DNA of 64,000 nt from Medicago truncatula. Lineage: Eukaryota; Streptophyta; Magnoliopsida; Fabales; Fabaceae. Numbering within the stretch: position 1 is the first letter of the stretch; every line of letters begins with the position of its first letter. The notes beneath the pieces are model-generated. The model did not search any database. It was not told the origin of the DNA and saw only the letters and a list, made by a program, of their open reading frames with translations. The position numbers and the translations under genes are program-made. This document shows, piece after piece, positions 8,230-33,283 of the stretch. The stretch lies in contig NC_053042.1 of assembly GCF_003473485.1 (NCBI RefSeq), forward strand, positions 52,291,762-52,355,761. The letters run 5' to 3'.

Positions 8230-8361
8230 TTTTATTTTTTAAAAAAAGTTAAATTAACCCACCCAAATTAACACGGGGAGAATCAAATTTGAAACCTTGA
8301 GAAGGAGCACACTCCCAGATTCCAAGTTAATACCACTAGACTAACTCAAATAGATTTAAAA
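8230..8361 (-). repeat. SINE (second family), minus strand
   Basis: The 9-bp duplication GTGAAGAAC lies at 8221-8229 and 8362-8370. The body matches the SINE inside the first UGT (12103-12238): AGTTAAATTAACCCACCCAA, then a box-B-like stretch and ACACTCCCAG. Reverse orientation: the tail lies at the left. Confidence 0.75.
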
Positions 8362-10680: not shown

Positions 10681-12138
10681 ATGGGATCCGAAGCAAACAC
10701 TCATATCCTTCTTATCTCTTATCCAGCACAAGGACACATAAACCCTCTTCTTAGACTAGCAAAGTGTCTTGCTGCAAAGGGTGCTTCTGTCATCTTCATC
10801 ACAACAGAGAAAGCTGGCAAAGACATAAGAACTGTTAACAATATCATTGAAAAATCACTCACTTCAATTGGTGATGGTTCTCTTACTTTTGAGTTCTTAG
10901 ATGATGGTTTAGAAGATGATCATCCTCTTAGAGGAAATCTTTTAGGCTACATAGAACATCTCAAACTTGTTGGAAAACCCTTTGTTTCTCAAATGATCAA
11001 GAATCATGCTGATTCAAACAAACCATTTTCATGTATCATAAACAATCCTTTTGTTCCATGGGTTTGTGATGTAGCTGATGAACATGGTATTCCTTCTGCT
11101 TTGTTATGGATTCAATCAACTGCTGTTTTTTCTGCTTACTATAACTATTTCCACAAACTGGTACGTTTCCCTTCACAAACAGAACCTTATATTGATGTTC
11201 AATTACCTTTTCAAGTTCTTAAATACAATGAAATCCCAGATTTTCTTCATCCTTTTAGTCAATTTCCATTTCTAGGGACACTCATCTTAGAACAGTTTAA
11301 GAATTTGTCTAAAGTATTTTGTGTTTTAGTAGAAACCTATGAAGAACTAGAGCATGATTTCATTGACTATATTTCAAAAAAAACAATTTTCGTAAGACCC
11401 ATTGGTCCATTGTTTCACAATCCAAATATTAAAGGTGCAAAAAATATTCGTGGAGATTTTGTTAAGAGTGATGATTGTAATATTATAGAGTGGCTAAGCA
11501 CAAAGCCAAAAGGTTCTGTGGTTTATATTTCTTTTGGGTCTATTGTGTACATTCCACAAGAACAAGTGAATGAAATTGCATATGGGTTATTGGATTCTCA
11601 AGTATCGTTTTTGTGGGTATTAAAACCACCTTCGGAGGAATTAGGGCTAAAAGAACATAATTTGCCAGATGGGTTCTTAGAGGGAATAAGTGAGAGAGGA
11701 AAAGTGGTGAACTGGAGTCCACAAGAAGAAGTACTTGCTCATCCTTCAGTGGCATGCTTCATAACACATTGTGGTTGGAATTCATCAATGGAAGCACTTT
11801 CTTTGGGAGTTCCAATGTTGACATTTCCAGCATGGGGTGATCAAGTCACAAATGCAAAGTTCTTGGTAGATGTTTTTGGTGTAGGGATTAGATTGGGTTA
11901 TGGTATGATTGAAAATAAATTAGTAACAAGAGATGAGGTGAAAAAGTGTTTATTGGAAGCTACAACAGGGGAAAAAGCAGAGGAGTTGAAGAAAAATGCA
12001 ATGAAGTGGAAGAAGAAGGCGGATGAAGCAGTGGCCATTGGTGGATCCTCTGATCGGAATCTTGATGAATTTATGGAAGACATTCAGAACCGTTGCAATA
12101 TTTTTTTTGAAGAAGTTAAATTAGTCCACTCAAATTGA
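10681..12138 (+). CDS. UDP-glycosyltransferase, UGT84-like; SINE-derived C-terminus
   Basis: Single-exon 485-residue family-1 glycosyltransferase, expected to move glucose from UDP-glucose to a small acid or phenolic acceptor in the cytosol. The N-terminal Rossmann half has SYPAQGHINPLL with putative catalytic His19 and INNPFVPWVCD near residue 120. The C-terminal half has the PSPG box: [28 protein letters not shown], and a final GDQ whose Gln suggests glucose. The ATG lies just after an A-rich leader and aligns with the paralogs. It is closest to the copy at 45188 (shared IIEKS, LKLVGKPFVSQ and VLETY-type segments). Odd: after ...NRCNI the last 11 residues come from an inserted SINE, where the paralogs end in an NIQK-type tail. 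It is the only plus-strand full-length copy. Family call is firm; acceptor unknown. Confidence 0.93.
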   Translation: MGSEANTHILLISYPAQGHINPLLRLAKCLAAKGASVIFITTEKAGKDIRTVNNIIEKSLTSIGDGSLTFEFLDDGLEDDHPLRGNLLGYIEHLKLVGKPFVSQMIKNHADSNKPFSCIINNPFVPWVCDVADEHGIPSALLWIQSTAVFSAYYNYFHKLVRFPSQTEPYIDVQLPFQVLKYNEIPDFLHPFSQFPFLGTLILEQFKNLSKVFCVLVETYEELEHDFIDYISKKTIFVRPIGPLFHNPNIKGAKNIRGDFVKSDDCNIIEWLSTKPKGSVVYISFGSIVYIPQEQVNEIAYGLLDSQVSFLWVLKPPSEELGLKEHNLPDGFLEGISERGKVVNWSPQEEVLAHPSVACFITHCGWNSSMEALSLGVPMLTFPAWGDQVTNAKFLVDVFGVGIRLGYGMIENKLVTRDEVKKCLLEATTGEKAEELKKNAMKWKKKADEAVAIGGSSDRNLDEFMEDIQNRCNIFFEEVKLVHSN

Positions 12139-12238
12139 CACCGGAGATAATAGAACCTGAGATCTTGAGGAAAAACACACTCCCAAGTCTCAAGTCAATA
12201 CCACCATATCAACCTAAGTGGGTTACAGGAGAACTCTG
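12103..12238 (-). repeat. SINE inserted in the last codons of the UGT
   Basis: A T run followed by GAAGAAGTTAAATTAGTCCA and the rest of the SINE body also seen at 8230-8361. GCAATATT occurs on both sides (12095-12102 and 12239-12246). Right after the second copy, AATATTGAGAAGATGTAA would have completed the original end of the UGT (…CNINIEKM). Confidence 0.85.
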
Positions 12239-12264
12239 GCAATATTAATATTGAGAAGATGTAA

Positions 12265-14061
12265 TTTTATTTTTTATTTTTTGAATGATGAAGATGTAAT
12301 GTAATGTAAAGTTTCAATATGATAATTTGCCCTGTCTTTATTTGTTGCAGAAAATGGACAATTACCACACATTTCACATTTGTATGCAAAATCCAAATAG
12401 GATTAAGTTTTGGGTGGCATTTCACATGGGAAAGGCCAATTCTTTCCCACCATGGACAACTTTTGATCAACCATCAGATTTTAGAGTATATTACATGTTA
12501 CTATATGTCTCTCACACCGGATCTAATCATCTATCCTTTACACCTCATCTCCTTCTTTGTCCAAGTCCAACCACCACCACTAATGTTCATCATCATCTTC
12601 AATTTTTTATCATCATCATCCTCATTACTCAAACCCATCCAACATTTTTTCTGCTCAAACCCATTTTAACAAATACCTCATGCATCTAGTGTAAGCCTCT
12701 TGTTTGTTCTCTTTCGGCACAAGAAAATAAAAATAAAAAATCTTCATTCAAGTAAAAAGCTACTAGTACAGCAATGGAGTTTTCACTTTTTAGTTCTAGA
12801 ATCTGATGATTTTTTGCTAAAAAAAACTACTACAACAATGGAGTATTTTTTGAGATCTGGAATCTTATATTCAAATCTACAATGGCTTTAAAAAATAAAA
12901 GATATAAGTTTCTTCATTTCCGGTATGAATGATACCAATTCTCAAAACCAAATGCAAAAGCATTAACTGAATTCCTGTCTTTTATGACAGTCATGTATTG
13001 ATCAAGAAGCAAGAAGCAAGAACTTGTCATTTTGTTGATTTGTAAAATTCTCAAAATAAATTTTACAGATTTTACAAATAAAAAAGAAAGCCACATCTAA
13101 ATGAAATTATTTGTGTGTTTCTAAATTTCCAGTTCGAAAACAATTAATCTGTACATAAGCATGACCAACTTGGCCAGGAGGTGTGGTGTGGATTGTAGAG
13201 GTTGAGGATAAAGGGTGGTGGAAAGGGTAAAAGAAATAATCTAATGCTGGCAGTGTATGATAAGATTGTGTTCTTCAATTAATCTGACGACCAAAATTAA
13301 CTTTTTTATGGTGGGAAAGGATTCACCTTTCCCATGTGAACACACACCTAAGTTTTGTTAGGAGAGCATAGTAATAATTGTACCATGTAACTCTTTGGAC
13401 ATAACATCATGGAAACATAAATGATTGGGTACTATGATTCGATGATTTGTTGGTATATGGTCCCCGTGTCCCTTGTTTGTAAGTCATTTTGAATAAAAAT
13501 TCTCTAAATACTCCTTATTAATATTATTAAGTCTAAATACTCATTCCTTAATTTTAAGTGTATTCTAAAAAGGAAAATTCTATGTTGAAGTTATTAAAAT
13601 GACTTTTCTTGTGAAGTTAACAATATAACATCAAAAGTGTTGTGAGTAACACCCCACTGTTTGTACAGTGACATCAAAAGTTCAGTCCCCTTAGTATCAT
13701 CAATTCATCAGATTAACAAGAATACACTTAATCTAATTTTATCCTACTTTGTTTTAAGTGTAACACCCCACAAAGTGTAACACTCACATGATATCAGCAA
13801 CTCTGTTTGCATGTTAAAGATGCCAACGAATAAATAGTACCTGTATTACTATTGATCATTAATCAACAATTTTAAAATGAATCAAACATTAAGATTAAAA
13901 TTAACTTTTTCAGAAAAGTCAGTTTCATGACTGCACCGTAGAAGCTCCCTTCTAAAAATTCCTTCAAAAAAGTGTGTTTAAATTAAAAAAAAAATTGTCC
14001 TTAGGGAAAATTATATACCCCTTATTCATACGTATCTTGAAATATAAAAAGTTAACATTAA
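12265..14061. other. 3' flank and intergenic; large inverted repeat
   Basis: CACATGGGAAAGGCCAATTC at about 12424 pairs with an inverted copy at about 13300-13345, bracketing about 0.9 kb without a convincing gene. Several open frames of 60-120 codons at 12319-12891 overlap in different frames and resemble nothing known. TAACACCCCACTG/TAACACCCCACAA occur at about 13650 and 13763. No other structure seen. Confidence 0.4.
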
Positions 14062-21017: not shown

Positions 21018-22370
21018 TTACACCTTGTGAATGTTTACAACACCACGTTTTTTAATGTCTTCCATAAATGCATCAAGATTCCAATCAGAGGATCCACCAA
21101 CGGCCACTGCTTCCTCTGCCTCCTTCTTCCACTTCATTGCATTTTTCTTCAACTCCTCTGCTTTTTCCCCTGTTGTTGCTTCCAATAAGCACTTCTTCAC
21201 CTCATCTCTTGTTACCAACTTGTTTTCCATAAGACTATAACCCAATCTAATCCCTACACCAAAAACATCTATCAAAAACTTTGCATTTGTAAGGTGGTCA
21301 CCAAATGCTGGAAATGCCAACACTGGAACTCCTGAAGCAATTGCTTCCATCGTTGAATTCCAGCCACAATGTGTCACGAAACATGCCACCGAAGGATGAT
21401 CAAGTACTTCCTCTTGTGGACTCCACTTCACCACTTTTCCTCACTCACTTGTTTCCTCCAAGAACCCATCAGGCAAATGATCATGGTGTTTTTTCGCCCA
21501 CAAAAATTTGACTTTAGAATTTAATAACCCAAATGCAATTTCATGAGATGTAAACAACAGAACCTGTTGGCTTTGTGTGTAGCCACTCTATAATACTACA
21601 ATCATCATCGCTCTTAACAAAATCACCTCGAATATTGCTTGCTGCTTTTATTGTTGGGTTCTTGAACAGAGGACCAATGGGTCTAATGAGGACTGATTTT
21701 TTGGAAAGATAATCGATGAAATCATGCTCTAGTTCTTCATAGGTATCCGCTAATACACAAAATATTTTGGACAAGTTATTCATATGTGACGTGATGAGTG
21801 TCCCTAGAATTGGATAGGGATTAAAAGGATGTGTTAAATCTGGGATTTCATTGTATTTAAGGACTATAAAAGGCAAATGAACATCAATATAAGGTTCTGT
21901 TTCTGAAGGAAAAGGTACAAGTTTGTGGACATAGTTATAGTAAGTGGCGAAAACAGCACTAGAATTATTCCATGATAAAGCAGAAGGAATGTCATGTTCA
22001 AAAGCTACATCGCAAACCCATGGAAGAAAAGGATTGTATATGATACATGAAATTGGTTTACTTGAATCAGCATGATTCTTGATCATTTTAGAAAAAAAAA
22101 CTGCCTCCCAACAAGCTCAAGCTCTGCATGGTCAATGGAACCATCATCTAGTAAACAATGATCAAAGAACTCGAAAGTGAGGCAACCATCGCCTATTGGA
22201 GTTGCTAATTTGTTGGTGATTCGCATGTCTTTGCCTGCTTTCTCTGTTGTAGTAAAGATGACAGAGGCACCCTTTGCAGCAAGACATTTTCCTAGTCTAA
22301 GAAGAGGGTTTATGTGTCCTTGTGCTGGAAAAGAAACAAGTAGGATATGAAGGGGAACTTCGGATCCCAT
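21018..22370 (-). pseudogene. Decayed full-length UGT
   Basis: The N-terminus starts at 22370 with SFPAQGHINPLL. The frame is lost near 22085 at an expanded T run (GRQF region) and resumes as MIKNHADSSKP...VVYIS to 21541. There about 40 bp are missing compared with paralogs (the FGT...QEQVN segment). A nonsense codon at 21441-21443 replaces the Arg of SERGK. The frame then continues from 21434 through the PSPG box to ...VVNIHKV. At least three independent lesions make this a pseudogene. The PSPG box ends FGDH rather than FGDQ; His at that place is linked in some plant GTs to galactose use, but here it may simply be decay. It lies tail-side of the intact lipase, on the same strand. Confidence 0.9.
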
Positions 22371-32530: not shown

Positions 32531-33283
32531 TGCATTTGGATTCTTAAACGAAGGACCAATAGGTCTTATGGTGATTGATTTTTTTGAAATATAATCTATG
32601 AAATCATGCTCTAGTTCTTCATAGGTATCCACTAATACACAAAACACTTTAGACAAGTCCTTAAACTCTTCTAAGATGAGTTTACCTAGAAATGGAAATG
32701 GGAAAAAAGGATGTATAAAGTCTGAGATTTCATTGTATTTAAGAACTATAGAAGAATTGAGTTGAACATCAATATAAGGTTCTTCATTTGTAGGGAAAGA
32801 TGTTAATTTGTGGACATAGTTATAGTAAGTGGTGAAAACAGCAGCGGAATTAGTCCATGACAAAACAGAAGGAATATTGTGTTCATTAGCAACGTCACAA
32901 ACCCATGGAAAAAAATAGTTGTTTATGATACATGAAAATGGTTTGTTTGAATCGGCATGATTCTTTATCATTTGTGAAATAAAGTGTCTGCCAGCAACCT
33001 CAATTTCAGCATAGTGCTGAAGAGCTCTGAAGGCCGAACCACTGCCATCTGGTAAACCATCGTCAAAGAACTCGAAAGCGAAAGTACCATCACCAATTGG
33101 AGTTGCTAATTTGTCAATGATGTTGTTAGCAGCTCGCATGTTTTTGCCAGCCGTCTCTGTTGTGGTGAAGATAACAGTGGCACCCTTTGCAGCAAGATAC
33201 TTTCCTAGTCCAACAAGATGGTTTATGTGTCCTTGTGCTGGAAAAGAGACAAGGAGAAGCTTAATGGGATCTTCGTATGTCAT
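32504..33283 (-). pseudogene. N-terminal half of a UGT
   Basis: Starts at ATG 33283 and keeps SFPAQGHINHLVGLGKY and INNYFFPWVCD, and the acceptor-domain region to ...RPIGPSFKNPNA (homology ends at about 32531). It then runs into unrelated MITE-like DNA for ten codons to a stop at 32504. The nucleotide-sugar-binding half, including the PSPG box, is missing, so it cannot act as a UGT. It has the LNSSIVLKYNEI insertion shared with the copies at 53642 and 59249. A TATA-like CTATATATATC (minus) persists at about 33324-33334, so it may still be transcribed. Confidence 0.9.

Follow-up and report, generated by a model that had tools for sequence, protein, structure and literature searches.

An antisense SINE encodes the last residues of a UDP-glycosyltransferase reading frame in Medicago truncatula

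How does a gene for a UDP-glycosyltransferase (UGT) come to end inside a SINE, and what might this have meant for the enzyme? The gene occupies positions 10681–12138 (plus strand) of the window, by which we mean the whole analysed stretch of 64,000 nucleotides of M. truncatula contig NC_053042.1 (C1:52291762-52355761, in a searched genome of 430 Mb and 42 contigs). It is a single open reading frame (ORF) of 485 codons, with no internal stop, whose translation ends ...DIQNRCNI FFEEVKLVHSN*. In other respects the protein has what a family-1 plant UGT should have: a UDPGT domain (Pfam match, E 3.2e-26), an intact frame, an intact N-terminal AQGHINP stretch and, at residues 345–388 (11713–11844, plus strand), an intact 44-residue UDP-sugar binding motif, read from the translation and a five-row alignment, that we take by name and pattern to be PSPG. 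The product is presumably a group L plant UGT, UGT84-like. Near full-length alignment and the intact PSPG motif are common to it and to the group L enzymes that are its best solved relatives (8inh, 8ie4 and 8i8z); unlike them, it has 11 C-terminal residues derived from a SINE. The alignment with 8inh, the best of the three (647 bits), covers residues 1–475, and among the 60 solved relatives shown no alignment goes past query residue 475. Two damaged UGT paralogues belong to the same cluster, one at 21036–22370, broken or partial, in three matching pieces of which two have an in-frame TGA, and one at 32531–33265, where the N-terminal half alone is present.

The element itself is easily recognized. 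Positions 12103–12224 hold a full-length minus-strand SINE of a dispersed family, made up of a 116-bp core (12109–12224) and a poly(A) tail, seen as T6 on the plus strand (12103–12108). With 12090–12266 as query, at least 39 further matches were found in the plant's own genome, 82–88% identical and spanning roughly query positions 8–139; this count is a lower bound, since scoring covered 40 of the 815 first-look candidates. Searched with at most two mismatches, a degenerate 30-mer taken from the SINE tail matched the genome 521 times, the window's own copy included (251 forward and 270 reverse), against no genomic match for the reversed control at the same tolerance. Copies elsewhere, on which the first-pass annotation had made its SINE depend, are thus numerous. 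We took 39 of these copies and the window's own with 120-bp flanks, trimmed the flanks by 60 and aligned everything into 40 rows, which are not all independent, since the cores of L065/L068 and of L077/L082 are identical. Both ends of the element are sharp and shared by these dispersed copies, the sense strand running from 5'-AACCCACTTGGG... (AACCCA...) to ...CTTCTTC and then A, and the rows show a 3' A tail, with flanking target-site duplications (TSDs) in 29 of the 39 other copies. The window core is 86.2% identical to the 40-row consensus; 13 of its 16 differences over 116 bp are transitions, and its distance of p = 0.138 lies in a range of 0.052–0.198 for all rows. Judged by eye against box motifs, the consensus stretches TGGCCTGGTGG and GGTTCGATTC may be A- and B-box-like, the latter being altered in the window copy (GGTTCTATTA). 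A core of about 120 bp, an A tail and TSDs are likewise the features of poly(A)-tailed tRNA-derived plant SINEs, those of legumes included, and the putative box-like stretches would be another. Legume families of this kind carry names such as FabaS. There is a second copy of the same SINE in the window at 8243–8349 (minus strand), more diverged (80.6% over 108 bp) and outside the listed ORFs of at least 150 codons.

Read on the gene strand, the A tail gives FF and the core EEVKLVHSN followed by TGA, so the SINE-derived coding part extends over 12103–12138 (plus strand). It had been proposed that the last 11 residues and the stop of the gene come from a minus-strand SINE, and both the translation and the 40-row alignment bear this out.

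What the gene looked like before the insertion can still be read. The inserted segment, 12103–12246, is 144 bp long; this is a multiple of three, and hence the former gene end AATATTGAGAAGATGTAA (AAT ATT GAG AAG ATG TAA, or NIEKM*; 12247–12264, plus strand) is still in frame, behind four in-frame stops, namely the TGA of the SINE and three more. When 12103–12246 is removed and the flanks are joined, the frame ends ...DIQNRCNINIEKM (QNRCNINIEKM). L012, a SINE-free paralogue on chromosome 3, ends ...DIKNRGTINIHKM (KNRGTINIHKM). Its collinearity with the joined window extends across the insertion point and continues, gaps included, into the 3' flank; its AATATTCACAAGATGTAA corresponds to the remains of the old ending. 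The first-pass annotation was therefore right that the original NIEKM and TAA are legible at 12247–12264. The SINE-free arrangement that it had expected is also found, in paralogues: no SINE is present at the C-terminal site in any of the ten paralogous loci compared (L010–L018 and L031, nine with an intact ORF and L031 from a broken gene). When 30 UGT loci (L009–L038, some partial) were searched by blastn with the SINE consensus, the C-terminal position was matched in the window gene alone; weaker matches (71–74%) in L021, L023 and L032 fall in flanks.

The endings of these ten loci are themselves variable. Five follow the pattern N-[IF]-[QH]-K-x and five do not, and none ends in a SINE; since half of them differ without any SINE, the end of the UGT protein turns over by several routes. 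The 3' ends that depart from the pattern are those of L010, L013, L014, L016 and L017. L010 is the nearest paralogue by sequence (dS 0.184); it lacks the SINE, yet it ends EDIKKIKMIAQ and does not show the old ending.

The traces left at the target site are less straightforward. An exact 8-bp repeat, GCAATATT, does bracket the SINE, as had been noticed earlier, but it is probably the core of a longer and diverged TSD. The automatic TSD finder gave this repeat a score of 8, with 14 bases left before the SINE, whereas 29 of the 39 other copies have a repeat scoring at least 10 at the SINE 5' end at an offset of –2 to +1; the window copy thus fails, as do 10 of the 39, and a TSD of 8 bp alone, which would leave those 14 bases unexplained, is the less likely reading. 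A longer pair, first spotted by eye and scored afterwards, has its probable left copy, still coding, at 12080–12102 (ACATTCAGAACCGTTGCAATATT) and its probable right copy, now non-coding, at 12225–12246 (ACAGGAGAACTCTGGCAATATT), both given on the plus strand. Their last 17 positions agree at 14, and the remainder aligns with one gap. The local score of the 22-bp right flank against the 60 bp upstream was reached in 15 of 5000 shuffles. For the part beyond GCAATATT (14–15 bp) the score was reached by 97 of 5000 shuffles and by 206 of 9141 window 14-mers, moderately above chance, and we regard a TSD of about 22 bp as probable, with moderate support. Given such a TSD, the SINE would end at 12224; of the extent 12103–12238 originally assigned to it the start stands, while the 14 bases 12225–12238 would belong to the second TSD copy. 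One base favours the longer pair: at a T/G mismatch between the two copies the right one shares its G with L012 (GTGGCA), which would fit a change in the coding copy after insertion. The insertion is apparently not recent, because the SINE is 13.8% from its consensus and, if the longer TSD is right, the TSD copies have diverged; a recent event is unlikely on both counts, though consensus distance may overstate age.

The SINE, its multiplicity, the SINE-free arrangement of the paralogues and the intact ORF are all plain at the DNA level. The account that we think very probable goes further: an antisense SINE insertion replaced the last five residues of the UGT by 11 residues and a stop, and the product is presumably transcribed, translated and tolerated. 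A tRNA-type SINE would have retroposed antisense into the UGT coding sequence, just before the last five codons NIEKM and their stop, duplicating its target, probably about 22 bp of it. The poly(A) tail and the SINE 3' end would then be read on the gene strand as FFEEVKLVHSN-stop, and the remainder of the SINE together with the old gene end would become 3' flank. Presumably the mRNA is made and is translated through the SINE tail to its TGA. Against the account count the failure of the window copy in the automatic TSD search, the moderate support for the longer repeat and the different ending of L010. As for the proposal that the SINE supplied the stop, the new C-terminus and the start of the 3' UTR, the residues and the stop are read directly from the element, and the 3' UTR would likely begin in it as well. 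Tolerance of the tail, rather than selection for it, seems the likeliest reading because the tail lies outside the region alignable with solved relatives, and because five of the ten SINE-free paralogues end otherwise. As a stretch of the protein that should be free to change, the tail would have been replaced at little cost. An AlphaFold2 model (from a five-row alignment of window UGTs) had a mean pLDDT of 41.2 and a pTM of 0.38, and we read nothing from it about the tail.

The main rival to a tail tolerated in a working enzyme assumes the identical insertion event in a gene on its way out: the SINE would have hit a copy already under relaxed constraint, an early pseudogene whose ORF is intact for want of time. 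We hold this to be possible but doubtful. A codon model of 10 paralogues (444 gap-free codons, SINE tail excluded) gave a single omega of 0.326. When the window gene was allowed its own ratio, its branch omega was 0.652 against a background of 0.318, which is in the direction of early decay, although the likelihood test is not significant (2x log-likelihood difference 3.27, p = 0.070); an omega fixed at 1 on this branch is not rejected either (2x log-likelihood difference 0.92). Own ratios below background were obtained for the branches of L010 (0.233, p = 0.18), L011 (0.164, p = 0.0067) and L012 (0.202, p = 0.024). Counting private changes, a cruder measure with shared sites left out, gives 28 non-synonymous to 7 synonymous for the window gene, or an omega of 1.09 that is not below neutral (p = 0.65) and is the highest of four branches, the other three having 0.24–0.43. 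The broken UGT paralogues of the same cluster also fit decay. Against it speak the 485 codons without a stop and the intact PSPG motif and AQGHINP stretch; in addition, the private-site count is perhaps distorted by exchange with cluster neighbours. Along alignment columns 1051–1200 the gene matches L011 (45188–46627) at 97% on the DNA level, compared with 76–93% in the other full blocks, which suggests sequence exchange between these neighbours, as after gene conversion. If this exchange is real, both the codon-model and the private-change counts are disturbed. Overall these values hint, without proof, that constraint on the window UGT may be relaxed.

It is improbable that the tail was recruited, that is, that FFEEVKLVHSN alters the localisation, stability or partners of the enzyme and is kept by selection. 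Such a role might be suggested by a frame that has stayed open up to the family-consensus TGA despite the 16 differences accumulated in the core. However, the SINE consensus itself reads EEAKLAHPN-TGA in this frame, and the window copy departs from it at three of its nine core codons, by one transition each; the same frame runs open to the same stop, exactly nine codons from the core edge, in 20 of the 39 other copies, which are not known to be coding. As the first stop falls at the same codon in so many copies, it is a feature of the SINE family whose use here needs no selection. A stop comes within nine codons of this frame in 31 of the 39 copies (3 of 39 have none in 20 codons), after four codons of the second antisense frame in all 39, and after two codons of the third in 36. 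From this mostly early closure comes a broader idea, in which the tail would be a selected part of the enzyme that changes its location or lifetime and the SINE family a ready-made antisense 'tail and stop' cassette; we give this slightly less credence still. Least credible of all is an assembly artefact, with the SINE brought from elsewhere or a chimeric junction: one assembly is the sole basis of our data, but the target repeat is present on both sides, the old ending keeps its exact register, and L012 is collinear, with gaps, over the 3' flank, features that one would not expect of a misjoin.

It should be noted that the first-pass annotation spoke of an exonisation, and in the narrow sense the word does not apply. 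It then denotes a new exon made from the sequence of an intronic element, and is so used in the part of PMC2194731 available to us; the accessible text of a study of the wheat Au SINE (PMC5787218) uses it more loosely. Here the SINE fell into an existing coding exon, and splice-based exonisation is rejected at the DNA level on account of an ORF continuous through the junction and by coding sequence flanking the site in the SINE-free paralogue. In the wheat study, as far as its accessible text goes, Au SINE is part of an exon in four cases, and transcripts that contain the SINE mostly have shorter coding sequences. Both that system and ours thus have a plant SINE inside exons of protein-coding genes. 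They differ in that the wheat cases are studied as splice variants with RNA evidence, while ours is known from DNA, has the SINE in the coding exon itself and has a slightly longer protein. Titles and abstract beginnings searched by us contained none that names this SINE family or this UGT gene, and the portion of PMC8825457 available to us makes no mention of Medicago.

Whether such a case is unusual, as had been claimed, can be answered in part. An ATG-started ORF of at least 80 codons enters the SINE from either side at one of 30 loci, the window's own; these loci, taken with 1.5-kb flanks, are the perfect pattern matches that come first in position (contigs C1–C3) among the 521 and hence not a random sample, and the count ignores introns. 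This favours rarity weakly. On the other side stand the variable tails of the paralogues and the wheat cases of a SINE in an exon, at least as the accessible part of that study describes them. The antisense SINE tail of this UGT is a fresh instance of an already known kind of change.

What sets the case apart is that it is unusually legible: the SINE, the duplication, the old ending and the SINE-free paralogues can all be read, and the protein end can be compared before and after the event. The change affects that end of the UGT protein which can best be spared, and it leaves views of UGT function as they were. It illustrates that an open frame can be ended by a short retroposon in antisense orientation at little cost.
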